64,000 nucleotides of DNA from Purpureocillium takamizusanense. Taxonomy: Eukaryota > Ascomycota > Sordariomycetes > Hypocreales > Ophiocordycipitaceae. Numbering within the stretch: the stretch's first letter is position 1; each line of letters starts with the position of its first letter. The position numbers and the translations under genes are program-made. The stretch is from assembly GCF_022605165.1 (NCBI RefSeq), contig NC_063070.1, positions 930,001 through 994,000 of the forward strand, written 5' to 3'. Below the pieces are notes generated by a model that was given only the letters and a program-made list of their open reading frames with translations, was not told where the DNA came from and searched no databases. Below, piece after piece: positions 20,756 through 47,511 of the stretch.

Positions 20756-23700
20756 CTACGAATCAAGGTCTTGGCTGGTGAGAAGCACTCCTTCCAACAG
20801 CCTGCCCAAATGGGTCTTCTCTATATCCCGACCCGATCGCAGGACCTGCGTCATCAATACCTTCAAGAACCGAACGGGACTTTCCCTGAATATGCTAGAC
20901 GCGTCGCGACCTGGAGGGTGATCCTCTGGCTCGATGAACCCGTCTGGTCCGACCCGCCGCCCCCCGGACGTTGCCTCGTGTGCCAAGCACAAAAAGTCGC
21001 AGACACTCACATACTGGTCGTAGGAGTCGAAGTAGTGTTGTCCGGAAAACAGCATGAGTTCAATCCTGATACGCACCGGGATTGGGTGAAAGGGCACGGG
21101 GGCGGACGGTATCGTGTACAAATCCAAGTTGTCGAGTGGTCTGAGTACCTGGTTCGTCCGTGGGGCGAAAAGGTGCAGCGTCACTGCTTTCGACGCCCCA
21201 ATCTCCGTCATCAGCTCGTTGGCCTCGAATGGGCTGAGAATGACAAAGGTCGTCTTGCGGTCGCTGAGAACCCATTGCACGGGCCGGACGTAGCTGTCCA
21301 TGCAGAATCCGGCAGCTGGTGTTGGAATGACGGTTCTCTCAAAGTCTTTGGTGACCAGCAGTGCTTGAGGGAAGTGGTCGAGATCTAGGTGCGCCGATGC
21401 ACTTGTTCGCCTGAAGACATCAAAAGCCAATGCAAAGGCCTCGTCTCTTGTTCCTTCATCGATAATACCGGTCTGGACGAACTTGCGCACGGCGTTATGG
21501 ACAGCATGCTTTGCGGGGTTAGCAGGACGAGGCCGTTCGAGTTGTCGCTCCTGTTCAATCTCTGGCGCGAGCTCGCGCTCCTGCTCCTCCTGCAGTCTGC
21601 TCGAGGAAATCTCCGTTTCTCCGTAAAGCTCGCATCTTTGTACGACTTGGTCGAGAATGGCTTGGTCGGTGGGGGCCTCGGTGGCTTCTGATATGCGGCT
21701 ACGGTCCGCGTGATTTGGGCGATACCGTACTTCAAGACTCTGAGCCTCGTCCTCCAGGAAATCCTTCGCCGTGTCACCATGAACCAGGAGCCCCCCATCC
21801 TCGCGCTCAATAGTCTCCCAGAGACTTTTGTTTCGCGCAAAGGTTTTGCCTTGAGTCGCCCATAAGGGTATTGACCGGCTGGTGTCGGCCCAGGTGCCTT
21901 GGATGGCCCATTCCAGTACGTTTCCCACGGTGATCGGTCCGTCTTTGGCGGCGGCGGCGGCCATGTCCCTCATCTTGGTCTCGATCTCTTCCGGTACACA
22001 GAACACGACGGATTGGCCGAAGCCAAGTTTGCGCATGCGCATGCAGGCTGTTACCAGTCAGTCAACAAGGTTCAAAGACGCGCAGGCATCAGCGACTAAC
22101 CTTGAATAAGACGGTCCTTTGTCAGGTCCGCACCTAGAGTGACCGCAGCTCGGTAGTCAGAGGGTAGGCGGAGGTCGATTCCCCTTGTGTGCGCCTCGTC
22201 GAGGAAGACGACGCAGCGACCCAAGCGTCCCCCAAACGGCGAGACGGCCAGCAGCTCCACCTGCCCACGGCGATCCAAGACACAAATATGGTCATCGTTA
22301 TTGCAGTAGACGACGGCTTCAATGTCGTCGCGGCCATCCGTAGCCTTCAACCATTCGTGCGCAAACTGCTCGTTTGTCATGTCGAGCACCAGAGCACCAA
22401 CGTCTAAGACGACCCGAACCTCGGGGCTCATCTTCACTATGAGCTGCAACAGTGCTTGCCCTCTGCAGATGCCCGGTAGGCCTTCTTCGCACAGAGACGC
22501 CACGGAATTTTCCGGACGTAAAAGGTGCTCCAGAACCAAAGCGTTGGTATGCTTTTGGCTGGGTAGTTCGAGTTGTACGATCGGCGTGGGGAGGACATGC
22601 TGGGAATCGTTGGTCCCACTGAAGCCGGTCAGGGGCTGCTGTCGAGGAGTCGCGAGGTCCCAGCCGCTGGCCGACAGTTTGTGAGGGAATTCTTTCATCT
22701 CCAGCGGGAAAACGAAATGGGAGAGAAAGTAATCGACGGCACCTTTTGAGCGCCTGAAGGAAGGGAATACATCCCTGAAGCACTGCTCCCGGTCGCGAAG
22801 ATTGATGCTCCTGGGGTGATGGAACGACTCACGAAGGCCGTCACTAGTCGCGACCCATGCCTTGTACTCCAAGTCCACCTGGTCTGATCGGAGGAGAAGA
22901 TCCAGGGACATGGTCAGGTCTTCGTCGCCCAAGCCGCCGTAATAGTACGACAGGCAAGTCAGGCAGACGACGACATCCGGGTGGCTGAACTCGGAGCGAA
23001 GGCTCGGACTGTCTTTGGCACGGTAGGGAACCGCCAGTCTTGTGCTGGGCTTCCGTGCCGGATCAAGCCCGTAGTTGACACGCCATCGCTTTTGGCCGAA
23101 TACAAATCTCAGGATCCCTCCAGCGAAGAGCCCGCGGAGAAAAAGGACGTTGTTCTTGAATCGCGTCCAAAATGGACCGCTTTCCACTTCCGTAGTAGTC
23201 TTGACTGGGGGGTTGGGATTCATGATGTAGTCTTGGATCCTGGATCTCATGTCCTCGCTCTGTCGTGCAATTGGAAAGTTCTGGAAGCCTAGTTCGCAGA
23301 TTTCGGCAACGCTCCGGAGAAGGATGCCATCACCAGCTGCGCTGCTGAGGAATCGTGTAAGCGGGAAGGAAGCTCGCGATTCCTCATCAAACTCCAGTCC
23401 TTGCGCAGACTCAGCCTTGGCCCGACGCGCGTACTTGACGATGATGCCCAGAACCAGCTGAATGACCGCCCATCGCTCTGGGCCGTGTTCGACCGTGCGT
23501 TGGTCGCCGATGGTGTAGACGAGCTCAAATTTTGTTGAGAAGTTCTCGTCGCTCTCGTCGACAATGTCTCGTGCTCCAAGGTTGAGCAATTTGAGCAGAT
23601 GCCACAACGTTCTGGCCAAACCTTTTTCTCCCCGAATTGCCGTCTCCACGGCGAGGAGTTGAAATGACAGCACATGCTCGGGCTGCACGACCATGACACC

Positions 23701-26700
23701 ACCGTCGGATACGCAACGCTGATACATCTTGGTGAGAGCATGTACCTGCAGCACGTCAAGCTTGACGGACCGGGAGAATGGCATCCGATATATGCGCCTG
23801 TTCATGAGGCCCCCGAGTTTGGACACCAAGACATCCAGCATCTGGCGTGACTGCGGTTTTGCAACGACGACCCTAACGAGCTGTGAGCCATTGGCAAGGG
23901 CTGCGGCGATGATAGGCACAATGACGGAGGATTTTCCCTCCCCCATGTTGAGTTGCATGACGGCACTACGGCCTCGTGGTGGTTCTCGCATAGCTGCTGC
24001 GATTCCCGCTTGGGTTCTCCGAATTCTGATGTTCCCTTCGATCTCGAGAAGCAACGAGTCAGGATACTCTTCGGGGTCCCAGCCTCGCGGTTGGAGCCCG
24101 GTGAGCTCCTTGTCAAAGTCCAGTCTGTTGTTCTTTGCCGTATAAAGACGCTCGACTGCTTGCAGGTCGCAGATGTTTGCACCAAGTGAAACGATCGCCG
24201 TCTTCCACTCGGCGGGTATCGCTCGCCAGTGCAGCCGGCCCAATAACGCTAACAGGCCTCTCCTCGATAAATCAGGCCAGACTTGAGTCTGAGCAGCCAC
24301 CTCCCAGGACGTATGCGCTTGTGTTTTGGGAGACGGGCTTTGGTTGCCCAGGAGTAAGGTGGCACGAAGCTGGCGCAGGAGATCTGCACATCGCTTGCGA
24401 TGCAGCTCAACAAGGTCCTCGAGTTTTGAACTGTCCAGGTTGTCGTAAATGACTTTCTGCTCCATGCTCATGTTGCGGGTCTGCAGGCATGAGACGCTCT
24501 CATCGAGCCGGTCAAGATACTGCATTTCGTGTCGATAAGTTGCCTTGGCCCTTAGACATTTGCTGAGTCGCTCAAGTCCACCGTTCTGTGAGGCCTCCCG
24601 CGCCACGGAGGTTGGGGGTTCGCGGTCGAACAAAACATCCTCGGACAATGGGATGGGACATGGAGCCACACTCTCCATAATGCTTGGTAGGTCGATGTGA
24701 AAGCAAGCCGCAGGAGGCGCGAGAGATGCCCGACTCGGGCTCTGAAGCGAAACATCCACTTCAATGACGTCGGCTTCGTTGAGTATCCTGCACACACAGC
24801 CAAGATATTGAAAGAAGCTCAAGTTGTGGAACCATGCTTGGGTATGCCGAATTATGGCGGTGTTGGCGTCCGCCACTCGGAAGGAGGTCGTGTTGATAGC
24901 CGTCGTTTCTGGCGTCTCGCAGGGCCACTGATGCTGAATGGACGCCTCTGCTTCGTTCGCTTCCCTCTTTACTCTTGCTTCGTATTTTTTGCGATGCCGA
25001 CGTACAGCGGCTTGCTTGCTTTCGGAAGGTTCGGGGGCAGCGGTTGCTTCTGCACTGGACATGAAACCTCGCTCTGCCTGCCTGATGGATTCGTTGATTA
25101 GGGCAGCTTGGTATTTGTAGCCTTTCGCGAGAGAGTAGGACCGTTCCGATGGAATATTAACATGACGCATTGCAGGGAGCGCAGCGAATGCCAGTAGAGC
25201 TTGAAGGCACGACGAATCCGCATCTCTGGCAAAGGCAAGCGTGGTAAGCCAACACGTCAGCTGGGTTGATCCGCACCCATGCTGAGTTTTCGCCAGCATG
25301 TGGTGGAGGCTGCACCACAATGGCGGAATAAAGGATGAGCGTGGTTCGAGCAAACCCGCGCGATATTGAATCTCGGCTGTTGGCAGTGGTTGAGCTCCGA
25401 GCGTAGGCTCAGAGCGGAGCGTAAGAAACTTGTAGAAGGCTGTTTCTGTGTAAGGTGACCCATTTGGAAGCAGGACGCCGCGACCTCGACGCATTGCGGA
25501 TCCAAAGCGAATGGCACGCCGCATTCTCTGGTGCATCTTTTGTGGCTCTTGCGGTTTCCTTTCGTAATTGCGATCCGGAAGAGTATGCATCCCGTCCCTT
25601 TTCTGTCCCCGGACGAATAAAGAGCGGGAGCAGCTTCTCAGCACGAGGTCGTCGTCTCCCCTCCTAAGATCCGCTTTAGGAACTGGGGTTTGCTGAAAAC
25701 ATTGCATTACTTTGGCATCATCATAAAGCTTCTGGCACGTTATTGCGAATTCTTCCGCCTGGGCGATAGGAGACATCACATTGTTCCAGGCTGCAACGTG
25801 CATCAGGCGCGCATGCTCGGGATAGAAAGAGCGCGACGGGGAGAGGCGAGCGATTCGCTCTAGGAGCGCAGCTTCCGCTTTTCCGATGTCCAAAGACGCC
25901 ACCCCGGCGGAGCTCAGGATGCTCAAAGCCTGAGAAGTTCCCATGGTGCCGGTGAAGGGGTCCGGAAGGAAGCCAGATGTCAGGGCGTGAAGTTCCGCAA
26001 TGAAAAGCAGCGATTTGAGGCTGCCGTTTCCCCGGAGCGCTCCAAGATGTTGGTCCAAGTAGTACGACTGGACAGACGTGGTGTCGCAGCCGATGGTGAC
26101 CACTGGGTGTGACTGTATCTTGTCGTCGAGTGTGGCCAAGGACATGCTCGGTCTGCCGTCCGGGATCAGAACTAAGCGTGAGTGCAGGGGCCCATCGGTG
26201 CGACAGAGTACGAGTTTGCTCTCAAGCCCAATAAGCGCGTCGATGCCTTGGTTCCGGTCGATGCGCATTCCGTGATATTGGCGCGACTGAATGCTATCGG
26301 ACTGGGGAGCCACAGAGAAATCTAGGTTCAATCGTGGAACATGAACATTCAGGACCTCGGACTGCTCATTGAACAGAATGGTCAGGCCCCAACTCTTCTC
26401 GATCGGTTCCAGAATATTTGCCAGCACTCTGCCCGTGCCGCTGTCGGGGAAAACCAGCCGGACATTGGCGTTGTCACGAACCCTCCATTTAGAGTCGGTG
26501 CGCAACATTGTCCAGCTCGATTCATGCTCGTCCCAAAGGTGACCATGAGGCCATAGTGAAATGCTTGAATTGGCGACGTCATACCAGTGGAAAAACCCGT
26601 CCACGAGCTGCGAAGGAAGACTCCCGCGAAAGATTCGTCGTGGTACCAGCTCCCACGCTTGTCCATCCTTGACAGCATGAACGATGAGGTCACTTCCCGT

Positions 26701-29700
26701 TTCAGCCATTCTGAAATGGAGCTCAAACCCGTGAAACAACTTGCTGGCTGTGAACGACATTTTTGGGTTTACGCTCGGCATCGCCTCGAACGCGGCGTGA
26801 CCAAAGAGCTCCGTGTACATTGCGTGGCGTTCATACTCGGCGGGAAGTCGACCTCTGGGCGACCCATTGACCAGTAACTCGCCTGTCACCAAATTGAGAT
26901 GAACACAAACCTTTGCGTCACTTCCGTCAATGTCCGCAGCTTGGGTGTCAATCCAGACAGTATTGACGGTTCGCCATGGACATTCTCTCGCACGTTGGAA
27001 ATTGTTCCAAGACGCTCTGATGGCTCGATCAAACCCTGTGGCGCTGCTCTCCATAGGGACGGCGATTTGTGTGAGCCGGTGACATCGCCAGACCAGATAT
27101 TGACACCGGAAGCCGAGATGAAACTGGGCCAGGTTGTTGTCATCGACGGTAAACTTGGTCTCGCGTAAAGTGATGAGGCTTTCCCAATAGTATCGCGCTG
27201 TATCCGGGTTGCGCAAGAGTGATACCAGGTACTCCTCCTCAACATCAAACGATAGCATGCAGACGAGGGCAGCTTCGTGAGTCCGCTGAAATAGATCGAG
27301 GCGCGTCTTAGAGTCCTGAGAGGTGATAGCTTTTTGTCGCAGCGTACGTTGCCATCCGCAGCCCACTTCGCGGCTTCGGGCGAGGAAGTCCAGGAACCCG
27401 CCAGACAGGCTGCTGCAGCCGAGTGACAACAGCCGAGCGGCCAGTAGAGTCAGCGTGGCGAGACCGAGGCGCGATTCCCAGCTTTCCTTGATTCTTTTCA
27501 GGGAGTTGTTCAAGTTGGCAAGGCATTGGCGAACAAATTGCGCGTCTCCAAGCCGTCCATGTGTCGCTCTTCTCCAGGTGGCGGACACCGGCCCGCACTG
27601 CTCAATGACTTGCCACACGTACGCCAGGGTCTCAACTTTGTTAAGATCGATAGAGGGCATGGCCAACTGCGTCAAGATGTTGAGCCACACAATGAGTCTC
27701 CCCTGGGGCAGTGTGGCTAGAGCTTTGAACTCGTCGATCGTCAGGTGCAAAGGGCATGTGTTCTGGGCAGAGATGACACGATTGGGCAAGGCTCCATCGG
27801 GGTTGTCCCACGGTCTCGACAGGAAGCATTGCAGGGACCGAGACGGGCCACGCAGCTGTATCGTGCAGACGTCGGAGATGTACCGCGACGGCTTGGGCCG
27901 TGATAAAGATCTTCCAGTCGAACCGTTCAGCAACATCCACCTTGGGCCCGTGTCTAGGCAGACGTTACTCTCGTCGGCGGTGCGGACAAATTGTTGCTTG
28001 CGGTGAGTGTTTGCGTGAGGTTTTGCCTCGGAAAACAGTTTCACCATGACGCTTGATGAATGTGGCTGGAAATGTTGCCTCAACTCGCTGTAATTTTGCA
28101 GCCGGCAGGTATATTCCGGCGTCTGGTCGCAAGATTCAAACTGCAAAACCGTCTGCAACACGAAGAGTGTGCAGTCCCTCCACGCGCCCAACGACCGTGG
28201 GACCCTAAGCTCAAATACCACGGCTTGGGCCAACGATTTCTCACGAGGCAAAGGCCACTCGTGTGCCCGTATCTTCAATGCCCTGGCCTCCCGTTCGAGA
28301 ACACACCTGGAGCAAAACCGGTCGTGAACAAGTCGCTCATCACCAAGCGTGTCGGTGGTGGCCCGATATGTGCAGGCTGAGCGCCTGACGTCGTCCATCA
28401 TCTGCTTATATTTGGCCTGGAGGCGCTGCAACTCTTCACACTTGGCTTCTCTCGCGTTCTGGGCGGCTTCCTCAATCCGTCGCAGTAGGTCTTGGTGACT
28501 TGGTGACGAAGAGAAGAACCGGACACCAAAGTCATCACATCCACCATGGTCGAACAGAATGGAGCGACGGAATGTCGCACGTCGCTTTCGCTCGTATAGA
28601 TACCTTTCCGCTGCTAACAGCCTCTTCATGTCGCGAGCCAGCTTCAGTAAGAGCGATCCGAATGGCTGAAAGGGGATCTCGGGTTCGTAGTCCTTGATTA
28701 AAGGGCAGAGCTTGATAGCAGCCTTGTCGCATGCAACCCAGAGCTCCACGATGGTCAAAAACATTCGTGAAAGGGCCTCTGGGCGTCCCTTGTATGCGTC
28801 CAAAGCCACGGCATGGTATGCCTCGATTGTGTCACGGAGATCAGCGCTGGTGCTGCTGTGGCCTCCATGCTTGGCAAGCCAAGAGTCGAGGTGTGCTTCG
28901 ACCCAATCTTCGAAAGAAGCTATGTTGTACAGGGCGTACGGTCCCGATTGTACCTCACTGAAGCGAGAGAGACGGGGGAGCGTGTCCCCCCTTAGTGACC
29001 ACATGTCTGGAGACGGAGGAACAAATGTTGTTGCAGCTCTGGATGCTCTGGTCGCGATGCTCTCTAGATAGTCATCCAGCGGGGGAATCTGGGAGGTGAG
29101 ATCCGAAATCGTCCTTGGCAGGTCAAATTTGGGAATGTCGAGGACTTTTTTATTCCGTAAAATCGTGTCTCGCCAGCGCTGATGGAGAGTCTCGTTCGCG
29201 CGTCCAACCGCCACGGCCACGGCGACCAGCCAGGGCTCTTTCTGGGTGTCGAGCTTCAGCAGGCGTCGGCCGATCTTGGCGTTGATGACAGCGAGCTCGT
29301 CGGACTGCATCGCCGAATCGAGACATCGCTCCAGGACTCGTGACATGAAGAAGATCATGAATCGTTTGTATAGGCCATGGCATCCGGGGTCTTGGGCCGG
29401 AGAGAGAGCCTGCTGCAGAACAACCCTGAGAAGCAGCCAGACCGGAGAGCGGCGCCATGGCAGCTTATTGCCATCGCTCCACATGACTTCTTCCCGGGTA
29501 TTTTTCCAAAAGCCCGAGGAGGCCTCGTCTTGTGAGCCGCCAAGACTGATTAGGATGGCTACCAGCAGGCTCTTGACGATGAAGGGCTCGGCCGTGTCTC
29601 GCTCCTCCACCTGCCTGGCGTTTGCTTTGGTTATCCGGGGCTGCATCTCGCTGACGATCTCACGGCTCATTGTCGTCAACGTGGTGGCCATGGTTTTCTG

Positions 29701-30252
29701 AAAGTCTCCGCGATTGAACACATCTTGAGGAACGGTGACCACATCTTCTGGAAAGTATCTCCGCAGCCGGCCGGACGTGCTGTAGACAGCCTCGTTTGGA
29801 GGTGATAGTTCAAAAACCTCGAAACGAATACCAGACGAAGTTGATCGAATAATCACACCCGCGTTTTGGGCGACAACGTGTACGGGAATAGTCACACCTG
29901 CGACTGGACACTGATTAGACCTGTGTCGACGCAAGGGAATGATGCTGTGCTTACCTTTGAGGGCTTGAGCCGCTTCATGTAAACACTTTTCTAAAGCCGG
30001 CTCCAAGATTTCACCCGTCTCCGTCCGAGTCTCCTGGAAGTTGCGTATGCTACCAATTGCCGCCTTTATGCAATCAAAATCATCCGTGTCGGTTCGATGA
30101 TCCCGGAACGTGCTCAGGGCCGACAGTATCAGTTCGATCAAAGCCGGCACCCAGCAGCCGTCGTCTTCGCCGGAGGGCAGCTTTGGCGGAAGGAAAACAT
30201 GATGGACGATGCTTTGCAGCATGGACCTTGTGATGCGCGATACAGGTGCCAT
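20756..30252 (-). CDS. Giant DUF6606-DUF3638-DUF3645 protein, helicase-like, 3,128 aa
   Basis: Exons 29955-30252, 22101-29897 and 20756-22047 sum to 9,387 nt. The 57-nt first intron (GTAAGC...CGCAG) is a multiple of three with no stop, so it looks like coding sequence if missed. The N-terminus (SIVHHVFLPPKLPSGEDD) is the DUF6606 start. In the last third, LNMGEGKSSVIVPIIAAAL at about residue 2080 resembles Walker A. DIVDESDENF (about 2213), VVFLDEAHTRG (about 2665) and ACMRMRKLGFGQSVVF (about 2700) resemble helicase motif II and VI regions. This architecture is widespread in fungi, often labelled 'ubiquitinyl hydrolase'. I see no cysteine-protease signature and would treat that name with caution. 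Function unproven; the motifs suggest a nucleotide-driven motor. No stop, frameshift or repeat expansion seen. The start is the ATG at 30252. Confidence 0.85.
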
Positions 30253-31152
30253 CACGACATGGCGTATCGAATTTCCTGAGTTCGTTGGTAGGTGCTGTCA
30301 AAGAGGATTCAGCAAAGCGCCTTGGTCCGGCTAAACCTCAGAGAACGTCGATCAAATGCGAATATGAAGGGCTAGGGGAGCCAAGATGAAGAAGGAAGAT
30401 GTGCGGCTGAGCCAGTTGTCGATGTCAGTTGGTGTGCGTCGCTGTTGGTATTGACCACCGTCAAACCTCGACAGAATGACAGATGCGAGATTTGATAGAG
30501 GCAGATGGTGTTTTGACTCGAGTTCCAGTGCACCTTCGGAGGGCCTCAGGCCAACCCTCGTGAGTGTTTGCTTGGGATTGGACATGGTATCGGACGGAAG
30601 TTGAGGACAAACGGAATAAGGGCCAGGGCTCTGCCGGTTTCAATGTCGAGGTGTGTTCCAGGTGCCTCGTCCCGTGCCGCTCTCGAGTTTTACTGTCTGT
30701 ATTATTACAAGTACGTATACTGTAAAGTCATGCCACTGCTGCCGCCGCCCGACGGCTTTTGACACATGCTATATTGCCCGATATGGCTCACCGACATTGT
30801 TATGCGAGTGTGCCTTCCTTGTGAATTCAAAGAGTAGTGCTGGCCGCATATACGTTCCTTCCACGTTTGCTTTTTTCTTCAAATATGCGCGTTGGCCAAC
30901 GGCGGCAACTACGCACATGGAACGGAAGGTGCCAGGGAGATATGCGAGGCCCACCTCTCGGAGTGTCGTTCATGAAAAGCCGTCATGGTGAGCAGAGACC
31001 AGCCTCCGGACGAAAGAGTAGTGTATCTGGCCCTGAAAATTATTTTTGCATGGGACAGAATGCCGAGAGTCGCCAGAACAGGGCCATACGCAAACTCGTC
31101 ACATGCAAGAAGCACAACAAACAGGAAGACGTCGCAGACCTGATTCGGGAAC
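30253..31152. other. Intergenic; promoter side of the giant gene
   Basis: A minus frame (30352-30585) and several plus frames are short and motif-free. A larger minus frame at 30909-31520 is the antisense shadow of the coiled-coil pseudogene. Nothing else seen. Confidence 0.3.
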
Positions 31153-39789: not shown

Positions 39790-40297
39790 TTTTTTTTATT
39801 AATCTTTTTCCCTTTGTGTACCCGACGGGCGTAACGACGGCTGCCTATATAGGTGATATTGAAACATTGTCAGCGTAATTTGATATGGGAGCTCGGTTGA
39901 CGGCTGGGCTTAGCGTCAACATGAACGCAGGAGCGACATTGATCAATCGAATAACACTGTTGAACAGTCGAGACCAACAAGAGTTTTAGGTGCACGCTCC
40001 TGCCAGCCAGCGGCGTGACCTGATACATTCTAATGACCACGGGGCGAGAGATGAGTCCACGTGCACGCAGCTACATTTTGATGGTTGCCCCTTTAGGAAG
40101 AACATGAACGGCTCTCTACTGCTTTTGCCCGCTCACTATATATTCGTCGTTTTCAATCCCTTGACACCACCAACAGGGACTTTTCTTCTGGTGTGTTCCT
40201 TTCACTTTTTGCCTCTCGACCTGCACGTACAATAAAACACAAGCAGCTTTTCGCCTTTCCAGTTTCCCTCTCTTCTCCCCCCCGCGACTACCCCAAC
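39790..40297. promoter_or_regulatory. Upstream region of array gene A, diverged copy of the array promoter
   Basis: Carries the array TATA block (TATATATTCGTCGT, 40137-40150) and, further 5', a block CCAGCGGCGTGAC (about 40007-40019) also present upstream of B, C and D. It is less similar to the B-D promoters than these are to one another, fitting an older duplicate. Confidence 0.5.
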
Positions 40298-40838
40298 ATG
40301 TTCATGTTCCGACGTGACGAAGATGAAGACGACATCGTTTTCCGGGCAACACTCTGCTGGGAACTCTTTGTGGAATACATGGCCTTGCCTGATCTCCATG
40401 ACACACGCCGTCAAGCCGCTGCGCAATATGTGGGATCCTTCTGCAACTGGAGGTTTTGGGCCGGGATCCCTGTACATGCAGTGCTCCCACGGAGCACCTT
40501 GAACCCACTCGTGGCATGCGGCGGCCCGAGGAGGGTCGAAGCGCAGTGGTTGCTGTTCAGGCTCGAGGCTGTTCTACGCCTGGGTATGTAATTCTGCCCC
40601 CTACCTACTCCGTCTCAGCGGTCGCTGGTGGTTATACTCGGCACATTGATGATAGGGCTGACTCCAACATGACTCAGAAATCAACATGTTTCACCCCAGG
40701 CTTGCCAGCCTGCCCCTCGATCGACATTGGATTCCGGCAGGGGTGGAACTCCCACAGGGCCAGTATGCTTTTCAGCCGATCCGTGAAGGGTTGGATAGGA
40801 TGGCCGACGAAATGAATCACGCACGTCAATCGCGATGA
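40298..40838 (+). CDS. Array gene A: small two-exon protein of unknown family, 148 aa
   Basis: Exon 1 is 40298-40583 and exon 2 is 40678-40838; the intron is phase 1 (CTGG|GTATGT ... CTCAG|AA). The acidic N-terminus MFMFRRDEDEDD is followed by LFVEYMALPDLHDTRR, aligning with the hallmark of B-D (LF-x2-Y-x4-NLH-x-TRR), and exon 1 ends RVEAQWLLFRLEAVLRLG. Exon 2 differs from the others: INMFHPRLASLPLDRHW and a helical end. No signal peptide or membrane segment, so probably intracellular. It is the most diverged member of the four. Start choice: the first ATG after a CT-rich leader, with A at -3; a second in-frame Met lies two codons on. Function unknown. Confidence 0.65.
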
Positions 40839-41357
40839 ATGGACACGCGCATGTGCATGAACCTACCAAGGGCCACCTGATTTGATCGATTACGTCGTTC
40901 ATGGCGTCGGTCATGTCGTCGATCATCTGGGCCGCGTCGTTCAACCAGACATCAATGTACGAGTTACGACGTCTGACATCATCAATGTACCGGCCGGCGT
41001 GATGACGCTTCGTTGAACAAGTATGTTTCCTTTCTTCTTTTTTTTGTGTTTTTCTCTCTTGGGCAATCAATTCCTTCGGCCGAGGTTAAAGTAGTACAAG
41101 TCAAGGGGTTCAGTGTTCCAGAGGAGCGAAATTGACCGATAGACCACGTAGAGTCTGCCTCAATGTGTTCAAGTTCACACAACGACTCGACTGGACTGGC
41201 TAAGCGTGAGGCCTGGCATGGCACCAATCTCGGGCGGAGGCTCCTCATGATTTGCAAACTGCATTCGTTGATTGAACCAAGGCTCTCCTTCAGACACGAC
41301 TGCCAAACACGGGACGGTCTATCCTTGTTGACGGGACGGGAATACTCCAGTCGCGCT
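40839..41357. other. 3' flank of array gene A
   Basis: No gene. About 41030-41150 (a T-run, then CAATCAATTCC, TCAAGGGGTT, GACCGATAGACCACG) resembles the 3' flank of array gene D at 47695-47800 (T-run, CCAATCAATC, TCAAGGGTTT, CACCAATAGACCCG). It may mark the original end of the duplicated block. Confidence 0.35.
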
Positions 41358-41958
41358 CTAGCACTCAGACCTTATCGCATACCCAATGACATCCTGTGCA
41401 CAAGTATTGGCATCGACCACGCAAAGTTGGTCCTCGGGATCCTCAGGACACTGCAATTGATGTGGGTAGACGAACCATGGTTAGAAGATGACTCGAAAAA
41501 ACAAACAAAGAGTTGACGTGGTGGACTGGATCCAGACAATCTGCAAAACTTACATCTCTCGGAAAGCAATTGTGATGGGTCGTTTTCGAATCATACTTCC
41601 AGTAGCCGTCCCGGTCCGTCTCCTCACTAAGGTACCAGGCGACGGTCTCGCACTGGTTAGTGGCCGGGTCGCACTGTATAGAGAGTATGCAGATTCGCAA
41701 TCAGCGACCGCCTGGTTTCGGGAGCAAAAGGCCAGGCGTCGTCATTGAGATATGTAGCACTGGCTCAGCCACACACACCTTTCCGTTCCTCCTTACGTTG
41801 TGCCTCCTCGCCTGAGCTTTCGCCGCATTTTTATTCTTCTTGGGGGCAGGACGACCCCGATGCTTTGAGATGGTGCCGTGCTTTTCCACAAACTCGGCAT
41901 CAAGGGCGGCCGCGTGTTGCGCAACAAGTGCCAACGCGATGAGGCCAGCGACCCGCAT
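41358..41958 (-). CDS. Small secreted cysteine-rich protein, 130 aa
   Basis: Exons 41779-41958, 41554-41673 and 41358-41450 (60, 40 and 30 codons) all join in phase 0. Residues 1-19 are a signal peptide (MRVAGLIALALVAQHAAAL). A basic, Lys/Arg-rich stretch follows (RGRPAPKKNKNAAKAQARR), then a C-terminal half with seven cysteines: CDPATNQC, HHNC, CPEDPEDQLC, NTC, and a final SEC. The start is the ATG at 41958. An odd cysteine number leaves one free or paired in a dimer. No family recognised; such proteins in fungi are often effectors or antimicrobial peptides. It lies between array genes A and B on the opposite strand, so it was either captured by the array or is an old neighbour. Confidence 0.65.
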
Positions 41959-42534
41959 CGTCGCCAAGCTTGGAGGGGGAGGCTGGACGTCGGTGACTGG
42001 CGCTGGGCAATAGAGTCGGGCTTCTGAACAGGGTAGGGAAACAGGAAAAGAAAGGGCGGCGAGGGGTGAAGACGAAGATGCAGTCGTGTCGACAAGGAGA
42101 TCGGGGGGCCACCAGATCAGACCAGTCCAGTCGGGCGTGCAATATATGCATGTAGCCGTTGGTAACGAGAGAGACCGTGCTTCGAGTGATTGGTTAGTCG
42201 AAATCGTCGAGCACTGATTTTTCCAGAGAGCGACGCATGTCAGGCCATAGATTCTGTTACGTTGAGATTATGATATGTAGGACTCTTGACACTTGGTCTT
42301 ATCGCAACTGGACATTGATGGGGCGTGAGGCAGAGGCCCCGTCCCTCCTCCGCTTTCTGACCAACGTAAACAAGTAGTCATTATGCGTTTCAACCTGACA
42401 CAGAGAGGTATATGTAGTATACTTAAGGCGGGCCAGAAACATGAACAGACTGGGCCCGATCTTCATGTTCAGAGCAGTTCATGTTCGACTCAAGTCCACG
42501 GGTGTTCAATGTTCGATACATTATGTCACTGGGA
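41959..42534. other. Intergenic; promoter of the cysteine-rich gene
   Basis: No gene. It ends where the B-D repeat units begin (block GGCACGGCGCGCTCG at 42536). Confidence 0.35.
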
Positions 42535-42989
42535 GGCACGGCGCGCTCGGGGACACGCATTGACGCGGTTTCTGCTCCAATGCTAAGCAGCACACATCAC
42601 CTTAACTTGTTGGTCCCCCAGCTGGAGTCCATGCTCAAGTCGTAGACGGCGAGGGGTCAATGAGAACGTGCAGCGGCTGCCTAGATTATATGATGTCGGA
42701 AATCAACGCACTGGTCTAGATCGACCTCATTGACGGTGAGGGACATGGAGGGAGTTTATCGGACTGGCGGGCGCAGAACATCAATCAATTACTCGACTGT
42801 TTCGATAGTGACGGACTAATATGACACACGAGCTTCAGTGCTCGACGCACCCACCGGCCAGCGGCGTGACGTTAATGCAGATAGCGATGTGAGCATTTGA
42901 TCGCACCGAGAGCAGATGGGGGTGCAAGCACAGCACCAGTTGACCCGAGTACGTAATAACGCTCCATATCACTCCTCTGTGCCGCTTGC

Positions 42990-43005
42990 TACATATTTCG
43001 TCGTT
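42990..43005 (+). promoter_or_regulatory. TATA-type core promoter of array gene B
   Basis: TACATATTTCGTCGTT, 144 bases before the ATG. The same element is TATATATTCGTCGT (A, 40137), TATATATTTCGTCGTT (C, 44858) and TATATATCCGTCGTT (D, 46761), always 136-161 bases from the start. The B copy has a C inside the TATA core. Confidence 0.6.
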
Positions 43006-43133
43006 CCCTCCACGCTCACACAACCGTCGTACCTGACTCCAAGAGTGCTTTCCAATACGCTTTTTTGTCTCTCGGCCTGATTCACCCTAGAAACTATTTC
43101 CTGTTTCCCGTCTCTCTCTCTCTCCCTCTTATA

Positions 43134-43743
43134 ATGTCTCGGCCCGGGCCTCGATCTGGTGGCCAACATGAAGACGAGATCAAAAGCCGGGTAGCTAGAT
43201 GCAGAGCTCTCTTTGCTCGCTACGTAGCGCAGCCCAACCTCCACCCGAGTCGCCGCTTACACTTTTTGGCGTACGAGAGAGGCCTAGTCGCCTGGGCGAC
43301 GGTTGCAGGGGCCCTTCCAACGGAGGAATTAGCGGGAATATGGCCGGAGGGTGTCATGCACCCAGACTTGGCACAGCCTGGCCGGATGAGGACTCATACG
43401 ATTGAGTTACTCACGGAACTCGAGGCGTCCCTACATACGGGTAATACTACTACTTACTCCCGTCCCTGTGGGCATGGTGCTGACTCCAAAATTAGAAGTC
43501 TCCTGCTGGCTTCTCCACCGGCAGGATATTAGTGTTAAGGGGGTGAACATTCCGCCGACCGGCAAATATCCTGCCCACATTCATTCATCAGGCCAAGCCC
43601 TTATTGAGCCAATTATTACAGAACTTATAGAAACACACACTAGGTTGCTACCACAGTTGGTCGCATCGATGGAGTCGAGGCGAATGCAGGAGTTACGGCT
43701 GACGGCGTCGTCAAGGCCGACGGCGTCGCCGTCGCCAATATAG
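43134..43743 (+). CDS. Array gene B: small two-exon protein of unknown family, 184 aa
   Basis: Exon 1 is 43134-43440, intron 43441-43495, exon 2 43496-43743. Begins MSRPGPRSGGQHEDEI. Helical core LFARYVAQPNLHPSRR, then GLVAWATVAGALPTEEL, HPDLAQPG, and THTIELLTELEASLHTG at the exon end. Exon 2 starts after ACGG|GTAATA...TTAG|AA, as in C and D. It encodes KGVNIPPTGKYPAHIHSSG, a helical stretch (LIEPIITELIETHTRLL), and a low-complexity end SSRPTASPSPI. No signal peptide or membrane segment. Closest to C in exon 1. Exon 2 shows less similarity, so the two halves may evolve differently. Function unknown. Confidence 0.7.
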
Positions 43744-43786
43744 CGACTGTTTAGTCTGCTGCTTCGATAGGCCACGTCTTCCTACT

Positions 43787-44247
43787 GTGTTGGTGAGAGA
43801 AGGCGCGGAAGATGACTGCGGTAGGAGGTAGCCCAGGTGAAAAACGGCTAAAGGAATGGCTAGGGGTAAAAGAGACAGCAAGGATAAGACTATAAGGATA
43901 GCTATAAAAGGAGAGAGACCACCCTAGAGGAACGAGGACGTCACGCCTCTTTAGTCATAGCCGACCATACTCACTCTTTTGCCCCCTTCTTAATGCTTCA
44001 GATATAAGCATGCCTTAATAATATAAGTATCTTGCCTAAGCGCGAAAAGCCGTATAGTTTTGCCGAGGAGCGTAAATACGAGCATTCGACGTTAGAGACC
44101 ATTTAATCAGCTTATAACGGACCTCTTGACTATAGAAGGACTTTAGATTTAGGAATCCTTACGTTACGACGCGTTAAGCAGAGATGGAAGAAGAGAACGA
44201 CGAAGGAGATGCACTCCGTGGTTTGGTGTCTTTCTCGCCCCAATAAA
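43787..44247. mobile_element. 461-bp insertion in the 3' block of gene B, solo-LTR-like
   Basis: Units C and D read GTCCTACTAAACATG and GTCCTACCAAACATG without interruption; unit B has extra DNA flanked by a 5-bp direct repeat CTACT (43782-43786 and 44248-44252). The insert starts GTGTTGG and ends CCAATAAA. It holds a TATAAAAGG promoter-like box (about 43912) and becomes TpA-rich towards its right end, as after RIP. Size, target duplication and internal promoter fit a solo LTR. No coding capacity. The class cannot be named from this alone. Confidence 0.6.
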
Positions 44248-44993
44248 CTACTAAACATGTACCTTGGAGACGTAAAGGCCGGGCCGGGCGTGTTGAAGCT
44301 CTTTGATGATAGGGACTGGAGTCAGGGCGAATTGTATCCTTACATTGATATATAGTCCCTTCCTTTAGCTTAGAGAATATCATATACATACTTACTAAGA
44401 GTCATGGCGCGCTTGAGGACTAGATATAGACGCGGTTTATGTTTCAATGCTAAGTAGCGACAATCACCTCGACCTAATGGTCCGCCCGACTACATAGAGT
44501 CCATGCTCAACTCGTAGACGGCGAGGGGTCAATGCACGAGAACGCGCGGCGGCTGCCTAGCATTGCCCGGGGGAGGGCCTCGTCGGTCGGGCGCAGAACA
44601 TCAATGGAGTATACTCGGCTATTTGACGGACCAACATGAACCGAGTTTCAGTGCTCAACGCACCCGCCGGCTAGCGGCGAGACATCAATGCAGTTGGCGA
44701 TGTGACCATTTGATCGGACCGAGAGCAGATGGGGGGTTCCAGGCACAGCGCAGTCGCGTCCGTCGGTGCGTGTGTCAGAACCCAACCACACGGGTCATGT
44801 TGCTGCCCTTGATGTGAGTTGAGCACATAATAACGCTCATCCCTCTTTGCCGTCTGCTATATATTTCGTCGTTTCCTCCACCCTCGACAACCGTCGTACC
44901 TGACTCATAGCGTGCTCTCTAATACGCTTCTTGTCTCTCGGCCTGATCCGCCCTTGCAATCCTTTCCTGCTTCCTCCCTCTCCCTCTCTCAAG

Positions 44994-45573
44994 ATGTCTG
45001 GGACCCAGCCTCAACCTGGCAATCAACATGAAGACGAGATCATAACTCGGGCAACAAGATGCAAAGACCTCTTTCAGCGCTACGCAACGCTACCTAACCT
45101 CGGGGAGAGTCGCCGCGAACATACTCTTAAGAAAGAGAAATCTTTTATCATATGGGCGATTTATGCAGGGGCCCTTCCAGGGGTAGATGTAGGGGTGAAG
45201 TGGCCGGTGGGGCGAGTGCACCCCAAGTTAGCACAGCCCGGTCCGCATAGGAGTAATGTGATTGCTTTACTTACGCAACTCGAGGAGTTCCTATCTTCGG
45301 GTAATATTCACTATTTACTCTCTATCCTTGTGGTATTTTACCAGACCTGTCCATGTTGCTGACTCTAACTTAGAAATCGCCTGCCTGGATGATGGTGTTC
45401 AGGCGGTGGCCACTCCCACCGGCAGCCATCCTCACCACCCGGATACATCAGCCCAAGACCGTCTTGACCAAATTGTGGATAATTTACAACCCAAGTCCGG
45501 TTATGCGGCTGGGTCGATTCTCGATCAGTTGCTTATAAGAAAATTGGCGGCGTCAATGCAAAGGTACATGTAG
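44994..45573 (+). CDS. Array gene C: small two-exon protein of unknown family, 168 aa
   Basis: Exon 1 is 44994-45300, intron 45301-45373, exon 2 45374-45573. Exon 1 has exactly the same length as in B (307 nt). Begins MSGTQPQPGNQHEDEI. Core LFQRYATLPNLGESRR, then FIIWAIYAGALPGVDV, HPKLAQPGPHRSNVIALL and LEEFLSSG. Exon 2 (IACLDDGVQAVATPTG, SAQDRLDQIVDNLQPKSG, LLIRKLAASMQRYM) is diverged from B and D. No signal peptide. Function unknown. It has the best-preserved TATA block (44858-44873) and CT-rich leader. Confidence 0.7.
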
Positions 45574-45785
45574 CGACCGTTTGGTCTGCTATGTACTTTG
45601 ATGGGGCCACGCCGTCCTACTAAACATGTACCTTGGCAACGTACGGGCCGGGCCGGGCGTGTTGAAGCTCTTTGATGACCGGGACTGGAGTCAGCGCGGA
45701 TTGTTTCCTTATGTTCTCTTCCTCATGTCCTTACAGTCTCTTCCTCATGTCCTTATAGCTCTTCCTCAGGTTAATTTAGAGAATT

Positions 45786-46080
45786 CCTTGAGGAACGGAG
45801 TTCCGAAAGGATTTCTATAGCCCGGTTTTTGCATTCTTGAGGTAGTTAAGAGAGTATTTTCTAATTGAAGCTTTATTCCTATTAGTCTAGTTCTCATCTT
45901 CATCTCACAATCCACTGGCGTTTTTCCTATTATTATGATTACTACGTAAAGATAAACTACCGTTTCCTCCTTTCCCTTCTCTCAAGGCCAGAGGCCGGAG
46001 CTGCTGCCGGTCCCTAAGCTAGCTTAATGGCCAGAGACCCATACTGATGTCAAGACCGCTAAGGACTTCGTTCCTCAAGG
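45786..46080. mobile_element. 295-bp MITE-like element with terminal inverted repeats
   Basis: The left end CCTTGAGGAACGGAGTTCC (45786) and the right end GGACTTCGTTCCTCAAGG (finishing at 46080) are inverted copies: 12 perfect terminal bases, then AGT-C matches with two changes. The inside is AT-rich and non-coding. The homologous spot in unit B lacks it. I see no clear target-site duplication. Short, non-coding, with inverted ends: a MITE of an unidentified DNA transposon. Confidence 0.6.
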
Positions 46081-46908
46081 CTCGGTGTGCAAGGCATCCC
46101 TACATGTACCGTGCATTCCCCTATGTTATGTATATGCTTACTAAGAGGCACGGCGCGCTCGAGGACTAGATATAGACGCGGTTTATATTTCAATGCTAAC
46201 ATGAAGTAGCGCATATCAGCTTGACTTAATGGCCGGCGACTACATAGATTCTATGCTAAACCCGCAGACCACACGGCGAGCTGAGGGGTCAATACGAGCG
46301 TTAGGCGGCTGGGCGGCTGCCTATTGACGTCAACGTAGATGCCGTCATGTCGAAAATCAACGCACTGTATGTAGTCCGGTAGTCCGGTCCGGACCTCATT
46401 CGACGGGGAAGGGGGAAAGCCTGTTGGATTGATATTGAGGCGCAGAACATCAATGGAATACTCGACTGTTTCCATGTTGACGGCTGGGACCAACATGACA
46501 CCCGAGTTTCAGTGCTCGACGCACCCGCCGGCCAGCAGCGTGATGTAACGACAATGCAGCTGGCGATATGACCATTTGATCGGGCCGAGAGCACCAGCAG
46601 ATGGGGGAGTTTAGTCTGGTTTCAAGCACAGCATAGTGGCGCCCGTCGGTGCGTGTGTCTCAGAACTCGACTATAATCGCTCATGTCGTTTGTTGCCCTT
46701 GATTTGAGTTGAGCGTGCACATGAGAGCCCTTGATGGGCTCGCCCCTCTTTGCCACTTGCTATATATCCGTCGTTTCCTCCAGCCATGCTCACACATAAC
46801 TGTCGTACCTTGAATCCAAGTGTGCTCCAGTCTCCGTTACGCTTCTTGTCTCTCGGCCTGATTCACCCTCGCAATCCTTTCCTGTTTTCTCCCTGTCCCT
46901 CTCTTAAA

Positions 46909-47511
46909 ATGCCTAGGCGCCGCCCTCAACCTACGCGCCGACCTCAACCTACGTCCCAACCTCAACCTACTGCTGCCACAGACGAGATCAAGGCCCTGAC
47001 CGAGGAATGTATATGCCTCTTTGGGGAGTACTTAGAGATCTCCAACCTCCATCCGACGCGCCGCGAAGCCTTTGAGGGGTATAGGGAAGCCTTCGGCTTC
47101 TTCACGCTACTTATCGGGAGCGCCCCAGCGCCATATAATATACTTGGACCATGGCGGGCCGTTGGCTTGCAACCACTCTTAGCACGGCCCGGTCCGAAGA
47201 GGACCAAGGCGATTGACTTGCTCAAGGAACTCGAGCAGGCCCTAATATGGGGTAATACTATTACCACTCTTCGTCCCTGTGGTGTTTTACCTAGCTATAG
47301 TGCTAAATCTAACTCAGAAAAGAGCGTCAATGCTCTCCACGTTAAAGACATTAGCGTTGGCACGTTCGGCTCGAAAGAATCGAGTATCTATCATACATCG
47401 GGCCGAAGGACTATGCAGCCAATCATTAATAAGCTCATAAACTTCGAAAGTACGTTGACGCCACTGAACATGGCATCGGCAAGGCCGACAGCGTCGCCGT
47501 CGCCAATGTAG
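46909..47511 (+). CDS. Array gene D: small two-exon protein of unknown family, 178 aa
   Basis: Exon 1 is 46909-47251, intron 47252-47317 (66 nt, in frame and stop-free, so a naive reading would include it), exon 2 47318-47511. The splice sites and phase match A-C. The N-terminus holds a threefold repeat of RRPQPT/SQPQPT type (MPRRRPQPTRRPQPTSQPQPT), unique to D. Core LFGEYLEISNLHPTRR, then FGFFTLLIGSAPAPYN, LARPGPKRTKAIDLLKELE. Exon 2 ends SARPTASPSPM, nearly the same tail as B, so these two share exon-2 ancestry or conversion. No signal peptide. Function unknown. Confidence 0.7.
   Translation: MPRRRPQPTRRPQPTSQPQPTAATDEIKALTEECICLFGEYLEISNLHPTRREAFEGYREAFGFFTLLIGSAPAPYNILGPWRAVGLQPLLARPGPKRTKAIDLLKELEQALIWGNTITTLRPCGVLPSYSAKSNSEKSVNALHVKDISVGTFGSKESSIYHTSGRRTMQPIINKLINFESTLTPLNMASARPTASPSPM

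Follow-up and report, generated by a model that had tools for sequence, protein, structure and literature searches.

The window analysed here is a 64,000-nt stretch of the genome of Purpureocillium takamizusanense (35.6 Mb, 14 contigs), corresponding to C3:930001-994000, and all gene, intron and upstream-element coordinates given without a contig are positions within it. It contains four small plus-strand genes, A to D, each made of two exons. Gene A (40298..40838; exons 40298-40583 and 40678-40838, intron of 94 nt) encodes 148 aa, gene B (43134..43743; exons 43134-43440 and 43496-43743, intron of 55 nt) 184 aa, gene C (44994..45573; exons 44994-45300 and 45374-45573, intron of 73 nt) 168 aa, and gene D (46909..47511; exons 46909-47251 and 47318-47511) 178 aa, the 66-nt intron of the latter being in frame, free of stops and read through by an open frame of 258 aa. 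These coordinates and lengths, the core motif LF-x2-Y-x4-(N/D)L-x3-RR, the intron phase and the AG|AA acceptor, all put forward in a first-pass annotation, were confirmed in the sequence. Pairwise BLASTP E-values among the four proteins range from 3e-38 (B-C) to about 1e-8 (A-D), with gene A giving 6e-11 against B, 1e-14 against C and 1e-8 against D; because of these values, their likeness is not due to chance.

Other claims of that annotation fared differently. The RPTASPSP tail common to B and D was recovered, also at the DNA level (49 nt, 88%), and the reported absence of signal peptides and transmembrane segments agrees with hydropathy, the property used here (best 19-residue mean 0.98 to 1.52 in the six family proteins, the two additional copies described below included). 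The glycine placed at the end of exon 1 had to be corrected: its codon is interrupted by the intron (G|AA) and encodes Glu once spliced, in all six copies. The description as a four-gene tandem stands for B, C and D, three tandem units spaced 1860 and 1915 bp from ATG to ATG with conserved flanks within the repeat unit, but not for A, a diverged, non-unit copy that starts 2.8 kb before the gene B start, with a different minus-strand frame in between.

The family has at least six members in this genome, A-D plus E (C3:2.666 Mb) and F (C10:0.368 Mb), the last two added when exon 1 of B, D, E and F was searched against the whole genome at the protein level; copy counts are lower bounds. The six proteins are 141-184 aa long, and F deviates from the core motif (LFKLGRDFENMNGTRR). 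One phase-1 intron is found in all six genes, with a GTAT (A) or GTAAT (B-F) donor, a branch-like motif and the AG|AA acceptor, and the intron sequences are still alignable. Since D, E and F have stop-free introns whose lengths are multiples of three, the reading frame compels splicing only in A, B and C; the splicing predicted in the other three rests on the alignable donor, branch-like motif and acceptor. In a tree of 26 rows, which include 14 hand-chosen members of a set of 81 outside relatives (see below), the six small proteins lie on one side of a branch with support of 99/98, F splits from the other five at 96/96, and A pairs with E at 87/70; the bootstrap is unsettled, and A and one large relative (L035) form long branches.

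Direct searches with the family returned little. In Pfam, full-length A-D had no match at E<=1, and the best E-value for exon 1 of the six was 0.15, with no HeLo match; protein databases yielded nothing at E<=1, whether queried with B (133 candidates) or with the six-row alignment (2981 candidates). However, exon 1 of F, searched against the whole genome, picked up exon 1 of a large protein (L021; E 0.0075), which in turn detected F (E 0.013). Further genome searches led from L021 to L032, L033, L023 and L035, and from L032 and L033 to L048. An alignment of the six small proteins and these six large own-genome relatives (twelve rows) found 81 outside proteins at E<=0.1; the organism was named for 15 of them, all ascomycetes, 11 being Fusarium. 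Precomputed annotation of the 81 places PF26082 (AcuF-like C2H2) in 22 and PF14479 (HeLo) in one, whereas PF26082 was absent from our own Pfam scan of the same proteins.

Profile-profile comparison points to the same relationship. With hhalign, the six-row small profile matched the six own-genome large relatives with a probability of 93.3-93.4 (E 2.7e-7, score 42.1), while 100 column shuffles of the full set reached at most a score of 19.7 and a probability of 6.2. The probability was 74.2 without L021, 73.8 without F, and 33.2 for A-D without L021. Against the 81 outside proteins it was 93.0 (score 43.9); against outside and own relatives together it was also 93.0, falling to 68.9 without F, and A-D alone gave 73.0 (score 33.4), the best of 100 column shuffles of the whole small profile in the outside comparison being a score of 14.9 and a probability of 1.4. 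Moreover, a phase-1 intron directly after helix 3, with in-frame splicing possible, was located by eye in three of the six large relatives (L032, L033 and L048); L021 has no intron there, and L023 and L035 are outside this count.

The domain in question, the N-terminal domain of the AcuF-like C2H2 proteins (zf-C2H2_AcuF, PF26082), shares with the small proteins the core C..xF ... F..W....G ... L..xL ... R....LL..L over helices 1-3. The small genes stop 50-80 residues past the domain and, unlike full AcuF-like proteins, have no C2H2 zinc finger downstream; their exon 2 is not alignable, and the GNIGAH and SLDYRLRD motifs common in the 81 relatives are missing from them. Homology of the small family to the AcuF-like N-terminal domain is very likely and, overall, fairly secure. 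The first-pass annotation, which did not recognise the family, was right in that there is no confident known family: a confident match of all four genes to one was not obtained, and singly only F, outside the four, passes. Nevertheless, the family appears recognisable as a remote offshoot of this domain, which its exon-1 profile matches, although singly only F does. In an excerpt of PMC13412767, zf-C2H2_AcuF stands high, together with HET, in a copy-number overdispersion ranking for Neurospora crassa. As a separate observation, at L035 / L053 (C12:420.7 kb) the N-terminal domain is followed, about 1 kb downstream, by a frame of the Ras family (Pfam Ras 7.4e-39).

A more distant likeness was found to HeLo (PF14479), the domain of HET-S of Podospora. 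In our own scan, nine of the 81 outside proteins had a Pfam HeLo match at E<=0.01, the strongest at 2.5e-6; the UniRef names of four of the 81 start with 'Prion-inhibiti', and the N-terminal domain of L021 gave a HeLo E-value of 0.0018, below the Pfam cut-off. The structural model of gene B exon 1 has three helices (predicted local distance difference test score, pLDDT, 85.2) and that of gene F four; the PDB neighbours of the F model include Rx coiled-coil (CC), MLKL and HET-s, but also unrelated bundles. The likeness consists of the predicted helical bundle, the weak HeLo matches of the AcuF-like relatives and HET-s near the F model; the small proteins differ by the absent Pfam HeLo match and a polar N-terminus. 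No prion repeats were seen by eye in exon 2 of the small genes, no motif search having been run. The genome itself has four HeLo loci, one of which (L037) joins HeLo to DUF7580 with a weak kinase match. Judged by sequence, the AcuF-like N-terminal domain is weakly HeLo-like; membership of the small proteins in the HeLo superfamily is slightly favoured, and we infer a HeLo ancestry of the family on this basis.

The family also has an upstream element in common. A 24-bp pattern derived from the family's own upstream alignment has six sites in the genome at <=2 mismatches, five of which lie upstream of B, C, D, E and F, 227-368 bp from the ATG; in the window, the plus-strand copies are at 42844..42867 before B (one mismatch), 44657..44680 before C (two mismatches) and 46518..46541 before D (no mismatch). 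A diverged plus-strand copy before A (39991..40020) is known from the upstream alignment and is unmatched at <=2 mismatches. Because the pattern was built from these copies, the matches to them are not the point; rather, the element persists before F, which lies on another contig and encodes a protein of roughly one-third identity, and the rest of the genome has almost no copy of it; the reversed pattern, used as a whole-genome control, has no sites. The conserved element hints at co-regulation of the family. The sixth site (L063, C7:2008567-2008590) has two mismatches, and no family member was recognised among the frames there.

Among B, C and D, coding sequence has changed more than its surroundings: identity is 0.76-0.81 upstream, 0.70-0.78 in the intron and 0.70-0.72 downstream, compared with 0.56-0.68 in exon 1 and 0.46-0.61 in exon 2. 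Pairwise ratios of non-synonymous to synonymous divergence (dN/dS) are 1.35 for B-C (pN>pS in 284/300 bootstraps), 1.09 for B-D (210/300) and 1.08 for C-D (192/300), and 0.59-0.84 for pairs with A. By exon, B-C gives 0.98 in exon 1 and 2.25 in exon 2 (299/300), where the alignment is uncertain. For B/C/D, maximum likelihood puts omega at 1.37 over the whole gene, 1.27 in exon 1 and 1.64 in exon 2. The second exons thus diverge most among fast-diverging proteins, and the proposed local duplication is supported. As to selection for diversity, the other part of that proposal, these sequence comparisons suggest but do not prove it among B, C and D: coding identity below that of flanks and intron and an omega of 1.08-1.37 speak for it, whereas the test against omega = 1 is non-significant and the comparisons with A run the other way.

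In the best-supported interpretation, the small genes form a novel free-standing branch of the AcuF-like/HeLo-like N-terminal domain and probably have a regulatory role in recognition or cell death. They would encode stand-alone soluble helical modules with the AcuF-like C2H2 N-domain as ancestor or sister, which would probably belong to the HeLo/MLKL four-helix superfamily as a remote branch. Helices 1-3 would come from exon 1, and a variable linker, the fourth helix and a free tail from exon 2; the downstream part of the large relatives and a strongly hydrophobic N-terminus are absent. Most likely, such modules would bind related domains, in AcuF-like or true HeLo proteins, and this binding could tune or block oligomerisation or signalling. 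In intracellular recognition or regulated cell death they may thus serve as decoys or regulators, and shifting partners would explain the number of copies and the rapid divergence of the coding sequence. The decoy idea and the term microProtein, used below, are general concepts. We infer the binding partners and the function of the small proteins, and the participation of A-D in recognition or conflict would be part of the same picture. Stand-alone AcuF-like/HeLo-like modules regulating or decoying recognition or cell death are the best explanation overall, even if it falls somewhat short of an even chance, and the regulator or decoy role as such is held tentatively. The odds of this interpretation and of its rivals overlap and do not sum to one.

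Several results weigh against it. Once F and L021 are both removed, the hhalign probability against the own-genome relatives drops to 25.5 (score 24.8), and single-sequence scoring is significant only for F and not for the other five members. Pairs with A show the reversed pattern of divergence, with identities of 0.43-0.49 upstream and 0.51-0.52 in exon 1, the upstream values lying close to the baseline of 0.42, the mean of shuffled exon-1 sequence. Omega is not significantly above 1 (p 0.07 for the whole gene, 0.23 for exon 1 and 0.15 for exon 2), and promoter constraint or flank conversion could also make the flanks appear slow.

The possession of the same domain without the downstream part, together with the co-regulation hinted at by the upstream element, would also be expected of microProtein-like, dominant-negative partners of AcuF-like C2H2 factors that affect gene expression rather than cell death. 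This alternative is unlikely: no data were seen for dimerisation of the AcuF-like N-domain or for an action of the small proteins on transcription, and Pfam gives only a weak zinc-finger match (zf-C2H2_4 E 0.055) in L033, one of the own-genome relatives.

With omega close to 1 and no significant excess over it, the genes might instead be relaxed, lineage-specific duplicates drifting to pseudogenes, without selection for diversity. Signs of repeat-induced point mutation (RIP) are compatible with this. A dispersed RIP-like repeat (43785..44250, no strand assigned) lies in the 3' flank of gene B, outside the gene, with a composite RIP index (CRI) of +0.70 for 43780-44245 and 41 own-genome matches at E<=0.001, itself included, the others at 68-85% identity; the array shows a mild RIP-like shift, with a CRI of -0.05 to -0.21 in its three 2-kb bins and of -0.28 to -0.96 in the other 29. 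However, none of the six frames or predicted splice sites is broken, whereas in a neutral simulation of one lineage with substitutions only, at a divergence (d) of 0.2, the frame survived in 189 of 5000 runs. Furthermore, among B, C and D the flanks changed less than coding sequence did, and transitions are scarcer in B-C exon 1 (42/55) than in B-C upstream sequence (58/33; Fisher p 0.006; C-D upstream 62/48). Relaxed drift is accordingly given a low probability, as low as that of the transcriptional reading.

Still less probable is that the small proteins are membrane-attacking death executors of the HET-S / RPW8 kind, inactive until triggered by a sensor. The four-helix model of F and its neighbours Rx CC, MLKL and HET-s would suit this, and the fast-diverging cluster recalls the Arabidopsis RPW8/HR cluster (excerpt of PMC6684095). 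Nevertheless, HeLo killing depends on the extreme N-terminal helix (excerpt of PMC12881547), and the N-terminus here is not strongly hydrophobic: over their first 20 residues the six small proteins have a mean hydropathy of -2.40 to +0.15, compared with an average of 0.40 in the 81 relatives and values above 1 in two of the four own-genome HeLo stretches, a rough figure as these are cut at the Pfam match.

The weakest alternative, an unrelated orphan helical family whose AcuF-like likeness is convergence of short leucine-rich helices, can draw on the five of six members that are non-significant singly, the unmatched exon 2 and the fall in score without F and L021, but is improbable given full-profile scores 2.1 (own-genome) and 3.0 (outside) times the best of 100 shuffles and the agreement of intron place and phase in three relatives.

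A bolder version of the stand-alone-module interpretation takes up the plant parallel. According to the excerpt of PMC6684095, RPW8/HR likewise comprises clustered non-NLR (NOD-like receptor) proteins with an MLKL/HeLo-like helical domain and a variable C-terminal part and copy number; it is a plant system, and its C-terminal 14/21-residue repeats and possible N-terminal transmembrane segment were not seen in the small fungal proteins; the comparison is an analogy only. By this analogy, it is conceivable, though unlikely, that the family is a fungal RPW8/HR counterpart: tandem, fast-evolving stand-alone HeLo-like bundles split from AcuF-like C2H2 proteins, controlled by a common promoter element and taking part in self/non-self recognition or cell death as polymorphic partners or guarded decoys. 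The available excerpts of the literature describe fungal HeLo domains mainly as NLR-linked or amyloid-controlled executors. If true, a stand-alone, clustered, fast-changing HeLo-like branch would offer a compact entry to the role of the uncharacterised AcuF-like C2H2 family, and a parallel to plant RPW8/HR.

Regarding the surroundings, no NLR gene was recognised near the array, E or F in an incomplete survey that applied Pfam to 10 window frames and otherwise relied on inspecting the beginnings of long frames. Between A and B, the minus strand carries a short two-piece frame (window 41443-41996) starting MRVAGLIALALVAQHAAA, which by eye resembles a small secreted Cys-containing protein. Also on the minus strand, an uninterrupted open frame of 2733 aa occupies positions 22096-30297 of the window.

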